Source: Hyalangium gracile
Lineage (GTDB): Bacteria; Myxococcota; Myxococcia; Myxococcales; Myxococcaceae
Length of the DNA: 38,269 nt
Direction: 5' to 3'
NCBI RefSeq assembly: GCF_020103725.1
Contig: NZ_JAHXBG010000048.1
Coordinates: forward strand, 1 to 38,269
Below are positions 5,981 through 13,207 of this stretch, piece after piece. Below the pieces are notes generated by a model that saw only the letters and a list, made by a program, of their open reading frames with translations, did no database searches and was not told the DNA's origin. The stretch's first letter is position 1. Each line of letters begins with the position of its first letter. Position numbers and translations under genes: made by a program.

Positions 5981-7909
5981 CTACGGCGTGGAGGGCTGCG
6001 TGGGGAGGAACCCGAGCGAGCGCAGCGGCCCGTCCCGGCCGAGCGTGATGAAGGGCGCCCAGTAGTAGGGGTGGGGGTGCGTCTCGCGCAAGGCGCGCAT
6101 GGCGTCATGGAGGGCCTCCGTCCGTCCCTTTCCCGCCAGCAGGTGGCGGTAGTAGCTCTCCATGAGGAGGCGGGTCGTTTCGTCGTTGACCTGCCACAGG
6201 CTCATGACGACGGTCTCCGCGCCCGCGATGACGAGGGCCCGGCGCAGGCCGTGGACGCCCTGTCCGAGCTCGACGGCCCCTCGGCCCGTGTCGCAGGCGG
6301 ACAGGACGACGAGCTCGGTGCCCCACAGGTCGAGGCCCGCCAGCTCGAGCGCGGTCACCGGGGCGGCCTCGGAGCGACGCCCACCGCTGGGGACTTCCGC
6401 CTTCCGAGCGCCTTCGCTGGCGAGCAGGAGGCCGGAGCTCAGCATGGAGGACTGGGGGAGTTGAACGGAGGCCTGCGCGCTGAAGGTACCGACGTGGGTC
6501 AGGGCGCGCGCTCCCGGGGTGAGGGCGACATCCTCGTGAGAGAAGCCGTGCGTCGCCACATGGAGGATGCTGGGAGCGTTCAGTCCCAGGAGCCTCTCTT
6601 TCGTGGCCTCGGCGCCGAGAAAGAGCTGGGCCTTGGGGAACAGGCGCCGGATGGCCTCGGCTTCCTGGCGAGTCCCGGGGAGCGGCAGCCAGGCCGTGTC
6701 GCCCAGCACTCCGCGCCAGAGTTCGCGCGGATCGGGAAGGGTCATGCGCAGGGCCAGCGCGGACTTCATCGACTCGGAGAAGTCAGGCACGGGCGCTGGC
6801 GAGCCGAGGTCGGGATCGGCCAGGACGACCATCGGGCCTGAAAAGGCAGGCGCCTCGGGCCGGGGCAGCAGATCCCTGCCGGAGGTCAGCAAGGTGAACG
6901 TGAAGGCCTCGGTGAGGAAGTCCTTGCCGTCGTGGAGCGCGTGGAAGGGCACGAGGCCCAGCTGGCCATCGGGACTGAGGTAGATGCGGCGCGCCTTGCC
7001 GAGGACCGGTCGCAGGGGCTCGAAGGCCAGGGCGTAGAGCGTGCGGGCCGGGGCCTGGTAGGCCGCGTCGCGGATGGCGAAGGCGTCCACCAGGGCGGAG
7101 GCGGCGCTGTCGATGGGCTCCGCGGGGCCCAGGTCGATCGCGTGGAGGCGGCCGTCCGGGAAGAGCACCAGGGCCAGGTAGCGCAGCGGGCCGCGCCCCT
7201 GAGCCGTGGGCTGCCCCTGCTCGGAGCTGTGCCCACGGGCTTCATAGGCAATGAACTCGATCAGCGCCCCGTCCCGCGGGAGGGAGGCCGCCACGCGGTC
7301 GACGATCCGCCCGGGTGGAGGGAGCGCCGTGCGCGCACGCTGGGGAGCGGAGCGTCGGACGAGCTCGGCTTCGAGGGCGTCTGTCTGCTCGGCGAGAGCC
7401 GAGAGTCGCCGCTGATGCTCGGCTGCTGGGAGCGAGCCCGCGCCCTGGAGTGACAGCATGGCCAGCCTGGTGCGCAGAGCGCGCAGCTGCTCGAAGGATT
7501 CGTGGTCCCGAGGGTCGATGCCACGGGAGAGGGAGCGAAACCTGCTGGAGGACTCCTCGAGAAAGCGCCCCTTGCGCAGCAGCACCGCGGTCATGGCCAG
7601 ACGGCGTACACGGGCGTCGTCCGGGTGGGCCTGGAGCAGGGCGTAGATGCGCTCCTCGTCGGTGCGCAGGAGCCGCAGGTGGCTCATCAGGCGCGGTGCG
7701 GAGAGGTCGACCGCCTCTCTCCGGAGGTGCTCCTCGGAGAGATCGAGCGCACGAGAGAGGATTGGCAGGGCCTCGTCCAGACGACGCTGGGCCTCATCCA
7801 GCGCCGTCCGAGCCGCGATCCGCCGCGGCTCCGTTGACTCCTGGCCGGCCTCCACCCCCACCGCGCAGCACAGGCCGACCACCAACGTCCATCCGATTGC
7901 TCGCCACAT
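5981..7909 (-). CDS. Secreted CHAT-domain (caspase-like) protease
   Basis: A 642-residue protein with a signal peptide (WTLVVGLCCAVGVEAG) and a C-terminal CHAT domain, a caspase-fold cysteine peptidase. The catalytic dyad is intact: H454 in HVATHG and C539 in LSACDTGRG, followed by the conserved GLRRALVIAGA and SLWQVND segments. Residues 30-250 are helical and leucine/arginine-rich, like degenerate TPR repeats, though no clean TPR was counted. A good ribosome-binding site (GGGGGGAA) sits about 7 bases before the ATG at 7909. It is the last gene of the kinase-ADYC-CHAT series, 56 bases after the ADYC stop. Most studied CHAT proteases are cytoplasmic effectors, so the signal peptide is notable. 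Target unknown. Confidence 0.87.
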   Translation of the reverse strand: MWRAIGWTLVVGLCCAVGVEAGQESTEPRRIAARTALDEAQRRLDEALPILSRALDLSEEHLRREAVDLSAPRLMSHLRLLRTDEERIYALLQAHPDDARVRRLAMTAVLLRKGRFLEESSSRFRSLSRGIDPRDHESFEQLRALRTRLAMLSLQGAGSLPAAEHQRRLSALAEQTDALEAELVRRSAPQRARTALPPPGRIVDRVAASLPRDGALIEFIAYEARGHSSEQGQPTAQGRGPLRYLALVLFPDGRLHAIDLGPAEPIDSAASALVDAFAIRDAAYQAPARTLYALAFEPLRPVLGKARRIYLSPDGQLGLVPFHALHDGKDFLTEAFTFTLLTSGRDLLPRPEAPAFSGPMVVLADPDLGSPAPVPDFSESMKSALALRMTLPDPRELWRGVLGDTAWLPLPGTRQEAEAIRRLFPKAQLFLGAEATKERLLGLNAPSILHVATHGFSHEDVALTPGARALTHVGTFSAQASVQLPQSSMLSSGLLLASEGARKAEVPSGGRRSEAAPVTALELAGLDLWGTELVVLSACDTGRGAVELGQGVHGLRRALVIAGAETVVMSLWQVNDETTRLLMESYYRHLLAGKGRTEALHDAMRALRETHPHPYYWAPFITLGRDGPLRSLGFLPTQPSTP

Positions 7910-7965: not shown

Positions 7966-9057
7966 CTATTGGCTTCGAGGGGAGCTGCCGGAACTCCTGG
8001 GCTCTCCGTACGACTGGTTGCGCAGCAACGCCGTCTCGGCGGTCACGCCTTCGCGTCGCGCGGCGCAGCGGCTTCCGTGGGCTCGCTCCACCTCCGTGGT
8101 GGCGCGGAGGCGCTCGGGGCACTCCTGGAGGATCGTCTCCAGCGCGCGCCCGTCCCGGGTATGCGCCAGGCACGTGGCACCGTCCGTCGTCCAGTCCGCC
8201 TCGAACGACGCCAGGGCGGGATTCCAGGTAGCCGAGGCCTCCGTCGTCGGCGTGAGCAGGCCGAGCTGGTCAGACACGTCGATGAGCGTGTCCGCACGGG
8301 TATGGGTGCGACCGTTGCCGCAGTAGTCGGCGCGGGCCATGCGGGTGCAGGCCTGATGCAGCGCGCTCAGCGACTGCCCCTTGTGGCTGGCCCAGGGCTT
8401 GTAGCCCCAGGTGATGCACTTGCTGATGACGCCCGTCTCGCAGGCCAGGGTGAACCTGTTCGCCGCGTCATGGCGCGCTCCGCTCTCGTCCCAGACGCCG
8501 CTCACCGCCAGCGCCCGCGGATCCGGCACGCGGCGGGTCGCCACGCACGGGTTCTCCCAGTCCTGGGCCACCGGGTTCCAGGCCTCGATGCGGTACCAGA
8601 CCATGGAGGGATCCTCCGGAGAGGGCTCGGCGCCGCAGATGGCGATCTCCATGGGCTTGCCGTCGCTGGAGGTTCCCTGGAGCACGGTGCCCGTGAGGCT
8701 GAGGGAGGCGTCGGGTGAGGCCACCAGCCGGCCGTCCTTCAGCGTCAGGGCCGCCACCTGGGAGCCGACGTCGGACCGAGGGGTGACATCCACCGAGACG
8801 AGCACGCTGCGCTGCTCATCGCTCCCCGCTCGCGCGCCCCAGGTCTGCCGGGTACCCCAGAGCATCGTGCCCTGGGCATGGCCTCCTCGGCTGGGAGCGC
8901 GGCTCTGGCACCGGCGCGAGTACCGCTCGGAATCAGCGGCCTGGGCAACGGCCGGGTGGGACTGCTTCGGCGTGGACGGCTCCGCGAATGCCAGAGCGGA
9001 GAGCAGCAGGGACAGGGAGGCCAGCAGGAACCGGGTCGACCTGGTCAGCGGTATCAT
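7966..9057 (-). CDS. Secreted ADYC-domain protein
   Basis: A 363-residue protein with a clear signal peptide (FLLASLSLLLSALAFA) cleaved near AFA-EPS. The middle carries KGQSLSALHQACTRMARADYCGNG followed by RADTLIDVSD, the hallmark of the ADYC domain, an uncharacterised secreted domain common in myxobacteria that is rich in conserved cysteines and often borne on lipoproteins. Here there is no lipobox, so it is predicted soluble in the periplasm or exported. About ten cysteines are spread through the mature part, suggesting disulfides. The ATG at 9057 has a GAGAGG ribosome-binding site that lies inside a long hairpin. It sits between the kinase and the CHAT protease genes. No enzymatic motif was seen; the role is unknown. 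Confidence 0.82.
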   Translation of the reverse strand: MIPLTRSTRFLLASLSLLLSALAFAEPSTPKQSHPAVAQAADSERYSRRCQSRAPSRGGHAQGTMLWGTRQTWGARAGSDEQRSVLVSVDVTPRSDVGSQVAALTLKDGRLVASPDASLSLTGTVLQGTSSDGKPMEIAICGAEPSPEDPSMVWYRIEAWNPVAQDWENPCVATRRVPDPRALAVSGVWDESGARHDAANRFTLACETGVISKCITWGYKPWASHKGQSLSALHQACTRMARADYCGNGRTHTRADTLIDVSDQLGLLTPTTEASATWNPALASFEADWTTDGATCLAHTRDGRALETILQECPERLRATTEVERAHGSRCAARREGVTAETALLRNQSYGEPRSSGSSPRSQ

Positions 9058-9064
9058 CGATGAA

Positions 9065-9102
9065 CCTCTCGGTTGGAGTTGGGACGACTTTCCAACGAGA
9101 GG
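9065..9102 (-). promoter_or_regulatory. Hairpin burying the ADYC ribosome-binding site
   Basis: Bases 9065-9077 (CCTCTCGGTTGGA) and 9091-9102 (TCCAACGAGAGG) are complementary over 12 pairs with one bulged base and a 13-base loop. On the transcript the 3' arm contains GAGAGG, the Shine-Dalgarno sequence 7 bases before the ADYC start at 9057. Folding would block ribosome access, so translation is probably controlled here. Confidence 0.5.
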
Positions 9103-9112
9103 CTCGAAGTCG

Positions 9113-9166
9113 CTGTGAGCCTCCTCACAGGTTGCAAGTGAGGAGCGTCACGCCTTTCCCGGCGTG
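9113..9166 (-). promoter_or_regulatory. Cluster of alternative hairpins after the kinase gene
   Basis: Three dyads fill the space between the kinase stop and the ADYC leader hairpin. CACGCC/GGCGTG (9149-9154 and 9161-9166) directly abuts the kinase stop. CTCCTCAC/GTGAGGAG (9121-9128 and 9138-9145) and CTGTGAG/CTCACAG (9113-9119 and 9124-9130) share bases and so exclude each other. This could be a processing site, an attenuator or a switch; no known riboswitch class was recognised. Confidence 0.4.
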
Positions 9167-12100
9167 TTACCGAAGTGGGGGCGAGCCACAGACGCGGACG
9201 CCAATGACCGCGTCACGCAGAGTGGGATCGCCGGGGGCGCGGTTGGCGGTTCGTGCGTCGATGTAGTGGTAGTACCAACCTCCACCCTTCAGGACGATGC
9301 GTCCGAGCTCCGGCGTCGCGGGCCGTGTCATCTCCATTGCGTTGCCAGCCATGTCCGAGAGGCCGAAGGGGCTGTTCGAGGCCGGATGGGCTCCCACCTC
9401 GTCGGGCCCGAACGACACGGGCTGCCGATCGTAGGTGAGGTCGAAGTTGGCGTCGTCCGGCTGCATCCGGCTCCCATGCGGGAAGGCGCGACCGTCGGCG
9501 CCGCGTGCAGCGAACTCCCACTCGTGCTCGGTGCACAGGCGGGCTCCCGGCAGTGCTCCCGAGCGATCGAGCCAGTAGAAGTAACCCGCGAGGTCCTCGG
9601 CGGAGACGCCGGACAGGGGGAATCGACGCCAGTCGGCCTCTTTACGCCGGGACCGCTCGGGATATTGAAAGCGCTCGTATTCGGTCGCCCTGAAGACGGT
9701 GCTCTGGCGATGAAAGGAGAAGCGCCATCCGGTTCCGAGCGAGTAACGAAGCGTGACTGCTCCCGCGGAGTTGATGTGCGGTTGCGTGAGTATGTCTCTC
9801 GCAGGAGCTTCTGGAGGTAGGGAGTCGAGATACTTGATCCAATCTCCGAAGGTGACCTCCGTCTTCCCGATCAGGAACCCCTCGTCGAGACACACACGGT
9901 GGAGCGGCGCGGTGGCCAGGAACTCCCGCACCTCCTCAGGATCATTGCTGCCCTGGAGAAAGCAGCCTTGCGGGATGTAGACGTAGCCAGGGGGAACAGT
10001 GGAGGGGAGTGCGATGTCGAGGGCTTGGGTCTTGCCGCGCGTGAGGAGCAGGGGAAGAACCACCGGAGCGCGATCAGCTCGTGTGATGCGGAGCCGGTAG
10101 GAGCCAGCGGGCAGCTGCTTTCCGGTGATGGGAGTCACGCCGAGCGGTGGCATGGGCTCAAGGCGAAGTCCCTGGGCATCACTGACATAGCGCTCGATCT
10201 CCACCTGAGCGCCTGGAGGATCGGTCACGAGCCCGAGCTCGGCGGGCGCATGGAGTCTCTGCCGCCACACCGCACCCTCGGGCGCCAGGTCCAGCAGCAG
10301 TTCGAGGCGCAACATCAGCTCGTCGCGGGAGCGTTGCTGGTGGAAGAACTCGGCGAGGACCAGTCGCTCGTAGAGGGCCTCAATGCGGAGTTGGCGCGCA
10401 ACTCGATTGTCTCTCGCACGATCGAGCACCTTCTCGAGCGACTGGTCCGCGCGAGCGTAGGCTGTGTCTGCTTTTTCAAGCAGTAAGAGCGCATCGCTCC
10501 ATTTCCGCTCAGCGGCTTTCCAGGAGGCCTGCGGGTCCGATGACGTCTCGAGACTGGGGGATGGAGGCGTCTTGCGCTCGAACAGCGCGAGCGCCTCCTC
10601 GCGGCGTGCCCGGGCCAGATCTCCAAGCCTGTACCCCTCGGCCATCTCGGCCCGCGCGGCGTCGAGCTCTTTCGCGACGAGGTGCTCATTCTCGAAGTAG
10701 GCCTGCAGGCGAAGACCCAGATAGAGGAAGCCGAGGGCGAGCACCACCCCGAGCACGGTGAGAGACCGGCCCCAGCGCTGGAGCCTCAAGGCACGGCGGG
10801 AGCCGGAGAGAAAGGCGCGGGCTCTCGGCGTCAGGGTGCTGGGATCGAGCGGGCGCGCTTCGTCCACCAGTCGCTGCCCCCACAAGGCATCCCTGGCCCG
10901 ACCCAGGCGCTCCCACTCGGCGCTCGCCGCCTCGACCCGCTGTCGCACCGCGCGATGGCCGATGTCGTCGTCGAGCCAGTTGCGCAGCGTGCCCCAGCTC
11001 ACCATGAGCGCGTCGTGGGCGATCTCGTACCGGGCCTTGCCACCCTCGGTGTGCACCTGGAGCAGCCGGCCCTCGGAGAGCGCGTGGAGGGCGGCCCGGG
11101 AGGCCGCGGACGGTGTCCCGATGAGCTCCTCCTCGCTGCGCAGGAGCCGCGTCCCACCGGTCGTCACTAGCTGGACGAGGAGCCGCCGTGCCGCCTGCTG
11201 CTCCTCCGGCCTCAGCTGTGCAATCACCCCATCCGCGTGTCGCGACAGCGCCCCGGCCACGCCTCCCATCTCGTAGAGCACCTGCCGCGTGATGCGGCCC
11301 TGCGCGGGATCTCTGCGCTCCCACAGCTCGGTGAGCGCGAACTGGAGGAGGGGCAGGTTGCCCGTGCCGTGCAGCGTGGACGCGATGAGCGTCTGGATGA
11401 ACTCCTCGGACTCGAAGACGACGCCGCGGCTGCGCGCCGGACCGACGATGGCCTCGTGCACGCCTTCGGGCGACATGGCGTGGAGGATGTAGAGCGCTCG
11501 CTCGGCCTCGGTCGCCAGCCCAGGCAGTGCGCAGACGCTCGTCAGGAAGTTGCCGCGCATCGCCAGGAGCACCCGGACGCCGGTGGACGGCAGCGCGAGC
11601 TCGCCGAGGACCGCGGCGAAGCTGGCGGCCTGGGCGGGATCGGCCTGGGTGACGAGCTCCTCGAGCTGATCGATGAACAGCAGCAGCCCGCGCTGCCCCT
11701 GGAAGGTCTCTCGCAGCGCCTGCGCGACCGCGGCGGGAGTGTCCTTCAGCGCGCTCAGGAGCTCCGCCTCCTTCCGCCCCAACAGCGGCGCGAGCGCGGA
11801 GGCAAGCGCGTGGAGCGGCCGGTGTCCGGGCCAGAGCGTGACCGTGGAGACCTCGCGGCCCTCGGCCTCGGCATACGAGCTCACCCGGGGCAGCACCCCC
11901 GCGCGGCACAGCGAGGACTTGCCGATGCCAGGGTCTCCCACGACGAGGACCAGGGGCTGGCGGTGCAGGCGATCGAGCACGGCGCAGATATCGGCGTCGC
12001 GCCCGAAGAAGAGGGCCTGGTGCTCCGCCTCGAAGGGCGCGAGCCCTCGGTAGGGATTGGTGGTGAGCGGCGCGGAGGCGTGGGTGTGCTCGAGCCGCTC

Positions 12101-13126
12101 CAGGGCCTCGCACAGCAGGTCGGCGGAGGCGAAGCGCTCGGCAGGGTCTGGCGCCAGGCAGCGCATGATGATCGCGGCGAAGTCCGGATCGACGTGCGCC
12201 TCGGGACGGATCGGCGGCGGCACCTCTCCCGGGTCGATGGCCTCCGCCGTCGCGCGTGGAGCCATGGCCTCCGGCATCTTCTGGGCGAGCGCATGCGGCG
12301 GGAGGCTGCCCGTGCACAGCTCATAGAGGGTGAGGCCGAGCGAATAGAGGTCGCTCTGCGGGGTTGCCGGGGCACCGCGCAGCAGCTCGGGGGCCATGTA
12401 CCGCGGCGTGCCCGCCAGCGTCTTCGTGCCGAGCGCGCGCAGGGACAGGCTTCGATCGATGCGCTCCGCCAGACCGAAGTCCAGCAGCTTCACCTCACCT
12501 CGCTCGGTGACGAGCGCGTTGGCGGGCTTGATGTCCCGGTGGAGGATGCCCTGGCGATGGGCCGCCGCGAGCCCTCGGGCCAGGCCCAGGCCGAGCGTCA
12601 GGAGCTGTCGCCAGGGCAGGGGCCTGGGCAGCTGCCCGAGGCTCCGGCCCACCACGTGCTCGGAGACGATGTAGGGATGTCCGCTGACCGAGCCGACACG
12701 GAACACCGTGACGACGTTGGGGTGCTGCAGGCGGGCGATGGTGCGCGCCTCGGTCTCGAAGTACTCGAGCAACGTCGGATCCGGCTCTCGCGAGGCGAGG
12801 AACTTCACCGCGACGAGCCGGCCCAGGGAGACATCCTGCGCGAGGTAGACGACGCCCATGCCTCCGTGGCCGAGCACCCGCAGCAGGCGGAACTCGTCGA
12901 ACTCGGAGGGGGGCGTCCAGGGAGGCTCGGACTTTTTCGCCTCGGAGCTGGGAGGTGCTCCCCCCGGGTCTGCTCCCGGCAACGTCTGGGTGTTGTCCTC
13001 CGGGCGGAGCTCCCGCGCGGCAGGGGGGGGCACTGCCGCATCCTGCCCATGCCCCCCAGGCAGGACGACGGCGGGCTGGCCAACGGGAGCGCCAGCCTCC
13101 GCCTCGCGAGATTTGGACGAGTCCAT
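9167..13126 (-). CDS. Membrane Ser/Thr protein kinase fused to nSTAND NTPase and SUMF1-like domain
   Basis: A 1319-residue multidomain protein. A Hanks-type kinase spans about 79-345: glycine loop GHGGMG, VAVK with K108, HRDIKPAN with D198, DFG at 216-218, so it looks active. NPYRGLAPFEAEHQALFFGR then opens an nSTAND NTPase with Walker A GDPGIGKS at 397-404 and Walker B LLLFIDQLEEL. An arginine-rich stretch and one membrane helix (LTVLGVVLALGFLYLGL) lie near residue 785, followed by a helical linker, a PEGA-like strand region (about 950-1040) and a SUMF1/FGE-like domain (about 1045-1315). The basic flank puts kinase and STAND inside and the SUMF1 domain outside. That domain has GGGWYYHY where formylglycine enzymes keep cysteines, so it is probably a binding module. 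The ATG at 13126 overlaps a 10-bp dyad. Ligand and substrates are unknown. Confidence 0.9.
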   Translation of the reverse strand: MDSSKSREAEAGAPVGQPAVVLPGGHGQDAAVPPPAARELRPEDNTQTLPGADPGGAPPSSEAKKSEPPWTPPSEFDEFRLLRVLGHGGMGVVYLAQDVSLGRLVAVKFLASREPDPTLLEYFETEARTIARLQHPNVVTVFRVGSVSGHPYIVSEHVVGRSLGQLPRPLPWRQLLTLGLGLARGLAAAHRQGILHRDIKPANALVTERGEVKLLDFGLAERIDRSLSLRALGTKTLAGTPRYMAPELLRGAPATPQSDLYSLGLTLYELCTGSLPPHALAQKMPEAMAPRATAEAIDPGEVPPPIRPEAHVDPDFAAIIMRCLAPDPAERFASADLLCEALERLEHTHASAPLTTNPYRGLAPFEAEHQALFFGRDADICAVLDRLHRQPLVLVVGDPGIGKSSLCRAGVLPRVSSYAEAEGREVSTVTLWPGHRPLHALASALAPLLGRKEAELLSALKDTPAAVAQALRETFQGQRGLLLFIDQLEELVTQADPAQAASFAAVLGELALPSTGVRVLLAMRGNFLTSVCALPGLATEAERALYILHAMSPEGVHEAIVGPARSRGVVFESEEFIQTLIASTLHGTGNLPLLQFALTELWERRDPAQGRITRQVLYEMGGVAGALSRHADGVIAQLRPEEQQAARRLLVQLVTTGGTRLLRSEEELIGTPSAASRAALHALSEGRLLQVHTEGGKARYEIAHDALMVSWGTLRNWLDDDIGHRAVRQRVEAASAEWERLGRARDALWGQRLVDEARPLDPSTLTPRARAFLSGSRRALRLQRWGRSLTVLGVVLALGFLYLGLRLQAYFENEHLVAKELDAARAEMAEGYRLGDLARARREEALALFERKTPPSPSLETSSDPQASWKAAERKWSDALLLLEKADTAYARADQSLEKVLDRARDNRVARQLRIEALYERLVLAEFFHQQRSRDELMLRLELLLDLAPEGAVWRQRLHAPAELGLVTDPPGAQVEIERYVSDAQGLRLEPMPPLGVTPITGKQLPAGSYRLRITRADRAPVVLPLLLTRGKTQALDIALPSTVPPGYVYIPQGCFLQGSNDPEEVREFLATAPLHRVCLDEGFLIGKTEVTFGDWIKYLDSLPPEAPARDILTQPHINSAGAVTLRYSLGTGWRFSFHRQSTVFRATEYERFQYPERSRRKEADWRRFPLSGVSAEDLAGYFYWLDRSGALPGARLCTEHEWEFAARGADGRAFPHGSRMQPDDANFDLTYDRQPVSFGPDEVGAHPASNSPFGLSDMAGNAMEMTRPATPELGRIVLKGGGWYYHYIDARTANRAPGDPTLRDAVIGVRVCGSPPLR

Positions 13127-13166
13127 GGAACTGGAGCCCAGTCTCTCACAGACGGGTCCAGTTCCA
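13126..13166 (-). promoter_or_regulatory. 10-bp perfect inverted repeat at the kinase start codon
   Basis: TGGAACTGGA (13126-13135) and TCCAGTTCCA (13157-13166) are exact inverted copies around a 21-base centre. The inner arm touches the kinase ATG (13124-13126). In RNA the start region would sit at the foot of a hairpin; in DNA it could be an operator. The position suggests control of kinase expression separate from the upstream GTPase gene. Confidence 0.45.
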
Positions 13167-13207
13167 CGAGCCCGCGGCTGCTACCCTGGAGGGCGGGTGA
13201 GCGAGGC

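Follow-up and report, generated by a model that had tools for sequence, protein, structure and literature searches.

A hairpin over the ribosome-binding site of an ADYC-domain gene in Hyalangium gracile overlaps a promoter-like element and may silence read-through RNA from the upstream kinase gene

In Hyalangium gracile, a gene encoding an ADYC-domain protein follows a kinase gene on the same strand, and its ribosome-binding site (RBS) lies within an RNA hairpin. This raises the question of what the hairpin does and on which transcript it would do it. The window analyzed here is the whole stretch of 38,269 nucleotides from contig NZ_JAHXBG010000048.1; the features discussed are collected in Table 1. 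The hairpin is located inside the 109-nt gap between the kinase and ADYC genes, where a terminator scan covering positions 8800 to 9400 detected no terminator-like site, and we infer that any read-through RNA entering the ADYC gene would originate from the kinase gene. The N-terminus of the ADYC protein, judged by eye, contains a signal-peptide-like stretch, and a literature search for "ADYC domain" found no papers. The ADYC and kinase gene families are linked in the reverse order as well: in many loci (L007-L011, L022-L025, and others), the ADYC gene lies upstream of the kinase start. The kinase start of the window (ATG at 13126) is itself buried in a stronger hairpin of about 20 pairs (13115-13180, minus strand; core TGGAACTGGACCC / GGCTCCAGTTCCA; −38.6 kcal/mol, z = −4.57), with no clear Shine-Dalgarno (SD) sequence before this ATG, and five relatives (L031, L167-L170) showed no such hairpin where their kinase genes begin.

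Table 1. Positions of features at the ADYC locus of the window and of dyad arrays in sister genomes
Feature	Position	Strand	Basis
Upstream gene, Ser/Thr kinase with Pkinase, nSTAND1 and FGE-sulfatase domains	9167..13126	-	Domain search
Distal dyad GTGACGCTCCTCAC, Crp-like half sites	9138..9151	-	Leader alignment
Proximal dyad GTGAGGAGGCTCAC, centre 23 bp from distal, about -42 from predicted start	9115..9128	-	Leader alignment
Hairpin 5' arm CCTCTCGTTGGA	9102-9091	-	Sequence reading and RNA fold
-10-like hexamer AAAGTC, degenerate in the window	9086..9091	-	Leader alignment
Hairpin loop, 13 nt	9090-9078	-	RNA fold
Predicted transcription start (+/- 3), within hairpin loop	9079	-	Inferred from hexamer at -12 to -7
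Hairpin 3' arm TCCAACcGAGAGG with bulged C	9077-9065	-	Sequence reading and RNA fold
Shine-Dalgarno GAGAGG, inside 3' arm	9070-9065	-	Sequence reading
ADYC-domain gene, ATG at 9057	7966..9057	-	PF20032, E 7e-53
Downstream CHAT-domain gene	5981..7909	-	Domain search
GTGAA-type dyad array	G004:C2:4851466-4851610		
GTGAA-type dyad array	G005:C1:9596557-9596701		
GTGAA-type dyad array	G003:C15:120177-120320		
GTGAA-type dyad array	G001:C13:90672-90816		

An earlier note on this DNA had described a 12-bp stem with one bulge that holds the SD sequence GAGAGG in its 3' arm, 7 bases before the start codon. This description was confirmed, as positions 9102 to 9065 form 12 pairs with one bulged C and 7 nt separate GAGAGG from the ATG. 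The minimum-energy RNA fold consists of this stem and three extra outer pairs (−22.5 kcal/mol; z = −4.69), and none of 200 dinucleotide shuffles was equally stable. The hairpin persists in 142 nt of context (z = −3.57; 2 of 200 shuffles equally stable). The note's statement that the SD is hidden also held for RNA carrying both arms: the unpaired probability of the SD core GAGG on window read-through RNA is 0.00, and not one of 100 arm shuffles was as masked. Among 48 open reading frame starts with an SD-like motif, chosen mechanically from the window and six named loci, the ADYC start of the window has the second strongest SD-to-upstream duplex (z = −4.60), after its Hyalangium versicolor counterpart L031 (z = −4.87); z values of −3 or below were obtained at four of these starts. 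The hairpin was not among the 21 pairs found by an inverted-repeat search with ungapped arm extension, likely because of its bulge, and an Rfam scan of the window gave no match at gathering score and hence no described RNA family. The 64 nt between the kinase stop and the hairpin would be too long a distance for a terminating ribosome to melt the stem.

Related leaders were located through the ADYC protein and not through DNA similarity; a plain DNA search of 59 relatives with the 141-nt leader returned the leader itself (2.9e-68) and a next best match of only E 0.016, and thus no leader homologue. The protein search of 96 family genomes gave 81 matches at E <= 1e-60, all of which were checked, and in 35 of them the C-terminus of a kinase resembling the window's kinase lies upstream on the same strand (at L002, the kinase end is 728 bp away and a further reading frame separates the two genes). 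ADYC start codons were picked by eye from the SD and signal peptide. Six of the 35 kinase-linked leaders share the upstream sequence of the window and are referred to as class A: L001 (window), L005 (G020), L006 (identical with L031; G006, H. versicolor), L021 (G033), L055 (G062), and L073 (G013). The class was set by eye and confirmed by a sequence-only model, R1, itself trained on the same six leaders. On the kinase tree, class A does not form a single clade: it requires 4 changes, and 19 of 500 shuffles gave a count as low as this. Most other ADYC leaders (class B; L003, L007-L011, L026-L030, L059, L072, L096, and others) carry, as judged by eye, the motif TGCATRR-N14-GSCTCYTC at 60 to 110 nt before the start, which probably represents a second type of promoter for this gene family.

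The class A leaders can be aligned without reference to the hairpin. All six contain two GTGA-N6-TCAC dyads, neither of which departs from the pattern at more than one of its eight positions, and the dyad centres are exactly 23 bp apart. A −10-like hexamer follows TCACA after 21 nt (four leaders) or 22 nt (two leaders) and begins 30 to 31 nt from the centre of the proximal dyad in all six. The hexamer is TACTTC, TACTCC, or TAATTC in the five relatives, and AAAGTC of the window is the poorest of the six. At class II Crp promoters, the activator site is found at about −41.5, and the hexamer then occupies −12 to −7. The class A leaders would fit this geometry, with a candidate site at about −41.5; a sigma-70 scan found no promoter. 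The 5' arm of the hairpin (9102-9091) overlaps this conserved promoter-like −10 region, and its GTTGG abuts the position of the relatives' hexamer. With a predicted start at about 9079, a transcript initiated on site would lack the 5' arm, and the hairpin could form only on kinase-derived RNA. The earlier note had named a transcription start downstream of 9102 as refuting its interpretation; the predicted start would indeed remove the 5' arm from on-site transcripts, but not from kinase read-through.

The same layout recurs at other genes. Run over the 96 genomes, R1 returned its six training leaders at E 6e-19 to 1e-14, as expected by construction, and the next match at 3.6e-6 (strict filters with 53 candidates per genome were used, and weak sites may be missed). 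Four of the 22 weaker hits keep a TA-N2-pyrimidine-pyrimidine hexamer at 21 to 22 nt, and the other 18 lack a −10-like hexamer at the right spacing. These four held-out sites precede a TPR gene (L144; TACTTC), TPR and CHAT genes (L146 and L147; TAATTT), and a short open reading frame followed by a CHAT gene (L112:2756; TAATTC), so the layout also exists independently of the ADYC RBS. Exact tandem dyads with a gap of 0 to 30 occur in 56 of the 96 family genomes, and the backward-pattern control gave, among the matches listed, at most one match per strand in few genomes. The genome of the window (G000) has seven tandem-dyad sites and no backward controls; five of the seven, including the window leader, have the 23-bp spacing. 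Sister genomes have other dyad spacings (34 to 35 and 44 to 58 bp in total), which seem to belong to distinct repeat families. In four sister genomes, conserved arrays repeat a GTGAA-type dyad four to five times, once every 31 to 34 bp (Table 1).

Of 10 genomes searched, 5 (G000, G006, G004, G005, and G072) also have tandem dyads 23 bp apart upstream of a Crp-family gene. The copy in G000, L155 (G000:C6:288153-288830), matches the Pfam domains cNMP_binding (1.7e-28) and HTH_Crp_2 (4e-14), and its orthologues are L151-L153 and L156. Judged from these sites, the L155 regulator is likely autoregulated, with a regulon that could be defined by the tandem site. The gene has no upstream tandem dyads in G020, G013, G033, G062, and G034, yet the first four of these genomes carry class A leaders; the six paralogues of the gene have no upstream tandem dyads. 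A Crp-family activator, for which the L155 protein would be one candidate, is therefore likely at the class A leaders.

We tentatively propose that a promoter overlaps the hairpin and that the hairpin masks the ADYC RBS only on kinase read-through RNA, while mRNA initiated on site is translated. The DNA from 9151 to 9086 would act as a class II activator-type promoter composed of two Crp-like dyads and a −10-like element. On-site transcription would begin near 9079, downstream of the 5' arm, which would be encoded in the −10 region. RNA derived from the kinase gene would contain both arms and fold, hiding the ADYC SD, and on-site RNA, with a leader of about 22 nt and without the 5' arm, would be translated. 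Promoter and hairpin would be mutually exclusive on one transcript, and the hairpin would uncouple ADYC translation from kinase transcription with no terminator required. The stem, the SD masking on window read-through RNA, the conservation of dyads and spacing, and the covariation of the arms are computed parts of this proposal, to which it adds an active promoter with the start site given above, binding of a Crp-family protein, and the occurrence of read-through.

Computed accessibilities are higher from the predicted start than on read-through RNA in most class A leaders. In the window, RBS accessibility (−20 to +3) averages 0.13 for read-through RNA, 0.36 when the 5' arm is shuffled, and 0.56 from the predicted start (the value of 0.00 for a start shifted 3 nt later is the indexing limit of the 20-nt window). 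Accessibility increases from 0.27 to 0.36 on read-through RNA to 0.45 to 0.59 from the predicted start in L005, L006, L021, and L073, and barely changes in L055 (0.29 on read-through RNA, 0.31 from its own start). The freed class A RBSs are only partly open (0.31 to 0.59). The 5' arm clearly causes the masking in L021, as it does in the window (again 0 of 100 arm shuffles as masked), and probably in L006 (6 of 100). Its effect is not clear in L073 (18 of 100) and was not detected in L005 (88 of 100) and L055 (54 of 100), so only two to three of the six class A leaders show masking that clearly depends on the 5' arm.

The absence of a 5' arm effect in L005 and L055 would suit another explanation, in which GTTGG is part of a promoter and CCAACGGAGAGG part of a conserved RBS, and their complementarity is largely incidental. 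Pyrimidine-rich −10 regions easily pair with purine-rich SDs, and the RBS arm is kept in class B leaders that have no 5' arm (e.g., L072, L086, L096, and L097), which suggests that part of the complementarity may be chance inheritance. In RNA folds, arm pairing is strong in L001, L005, L021, and, via an internal loop, L006; it is weak in L073, which favors an alternative fold pairing the SD with the hexamer region, and a matching stem is absent from L055. A duplex test of the RBS arm against the 76 nt upstream, with 300 shuffles, covered 31 of the 35 leaders (L100, L101, and L107 were excluded because the intergenic gap is very short or the genes overlap, and L013 because its row is distant). 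Two of the 25 class B leaders were also in the top 1% of shuffles, L029 beating all 300 and L086 being equaled by 3. Against an incidental match, however, four of the six class A leaders (L001, L005, L006, and L021) beat all 300 shuffles, with 14 and 202 shuffles equally good in L073 and L055, and the pairing in the window is among the two strongest of the 48 starts.

Covariation between the arms, which the earlier note had put forward as a check, likewise argues against a purely incidental match. Although six class A leaders are a small set for a covariation test, RNAalifold of five of them gave 12 pairs, two of which have both sides changed and are still paired; its covariation term is unfavorable (+1.28) because bulges are misaligned. 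In L021, both arms were altered together (CTCTTG with CAAGAG). Cognate arms outdid swapped ones in a permutation test of 30 leaders (L002, a near-copy of L003, was also dropped): combinations as low as the cognate one arose in 198 of 20,000 permutations for class A and in 2 of 20,000 for 16 clade-1 leaders. The clade-1 class B leaders alone were marginal (928 of 20,000), and the other clade had no cognate preference (13,116 of 20,000). With narrow arms, 16 of 720 permutations were as low when all six class A leaders were used, and 2 of 24 when the set was limited to the four with strong pairing. Arm pairing has thus probably been maintained in one part of the leader group and lost in another, and we regard a largely incidental complementarity as a serious possibility but a doubtful one.

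Less probable still is a translational switch, in which the hairpin would sit on a long mRNA, derived either from kinase transcription or from some promoter located upstream of 9102, and be opened by a condition or a partner. The strong stem, the full masking of the SD, and the compensatory changes among relatives would all suit a switch. However, its 5' arm coincides with the conserved promoter-like −10 region, the pairing is lost in L055, and neither an opener, a ligand-binding element, a conserved alternative fold, nor an Rfam match was found. Helices of the window's leader that exclude one another (GAGGCTC with GAGCCTC and similar) were considered as the switching element and rejected, as by eye they have no counterpart in the other five leaders. 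The earlier claim that translation needs the hairpin to open accordingly found no support in a switching partner, ligand site, or Rfam family. The related suggestion that the ADYC protein is made under different conditions from the kinase found no support as hairpin opening, but would survive as translation of ADYC from its own promoter and not from kinase read-through.

The inverted repeat could also be a DNA operator for a dimeric regulator, and it does overlap the −10 region and the predicted start. This is very improbable, as the position of the bulge differs between leaders, a variation compatible with an RNA helix but not with a DNA dyad, and the loop length varies widely. An intrinsic terminator of the kinase gene, for which the location past the kinase stop would be suitable, was rejected as the most remote explanation, since no T run follows the stem and the terminator scan was negative.

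The hairpin is therefore most likely a filter against read-through RNA rather than a condition-sensed switch. If this is true, a bacterial chromosome uses the arrangement of phage T4 gene e, with core promoter DNA serving as the masking arm, and the choice of promoter decides translation. A compact rule for predicting which internal promoters are insulated from upstream transcription in dense, terminator-poor, GC-rich genomes would follow. The secreted ADYC protein would then be tied to a Crp-like regulator and not to the upstream kinase gene. More broadly, complementarity between promoter and SD might serve as insulation throughout these multi-gene loci of myxobacteria, an extension that we consider unlikely on present indications. 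The −10 and start region of an internal promoter would then co-evolve with the downstream SD, so that only mRNAs from the gene's own promoter would be translated and stray read-through would be silenced without a terminator. Such a device would extend past class A to part of the clade-1 class B leaders.

The closest known system is found in phage T4. Long early transcripts of gene e, soc, 49, and I-TevI form structures that sequester the SD and/or AUG; late promoters just upstream of the RBS yield transcripts from which the 5' portion is missing and whose translation is efficient; and in T4-related phages, a late promoter is located where the 5' strand is encoded (PMC3014915). Gene e (lysozyme) thus has the anatomy proposed here for the ADYC leader. 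In contrast to gene e, the ADYC leader is part of a bacterial chromosome, with no phage genes seen nearby, and would use a Crp-type activator promoter where T4 uses late sigma; and arm pairing is weak or absent in two of six ADYC relatives. No bacterial case of the T4-type arrangement was recognized in a literature search, which is not proof of absence from print.

In the transposase genes of IS10 and IS50, RNA transcribed in from flanking DNA includes an inverted repeat that covers the RBS, and the element's own promoter starts inside the repeat (fold-back inhibition). The likeness lies in read-through RNA folding over an RBS; unlike these elements, the ADYC locus is without a transposon. Fold-back over the IS10/IS50 RBS is not described in the accessible part of PMC4265352. 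With class II promoters of the Crp/Fnr family, the ADYC leader shares the TGTGA-N6-TCACA dyad and a hexamer 30 to 31 nt from its centre, and it differs from them in its second dyad 23 bp upstream and in that the binding protein is putative. Within the myxobacteria, the Crp-family regulator MrpC of Myxococcus xanthus is similar in recognizing a Crp-like palindrome, of which a promoter can have more than one (PMC4320627); its motif, TGTYN8RAC, differs from the pairs of GTGA-N6-TCAC 23 bp apart in the ADYC leader.
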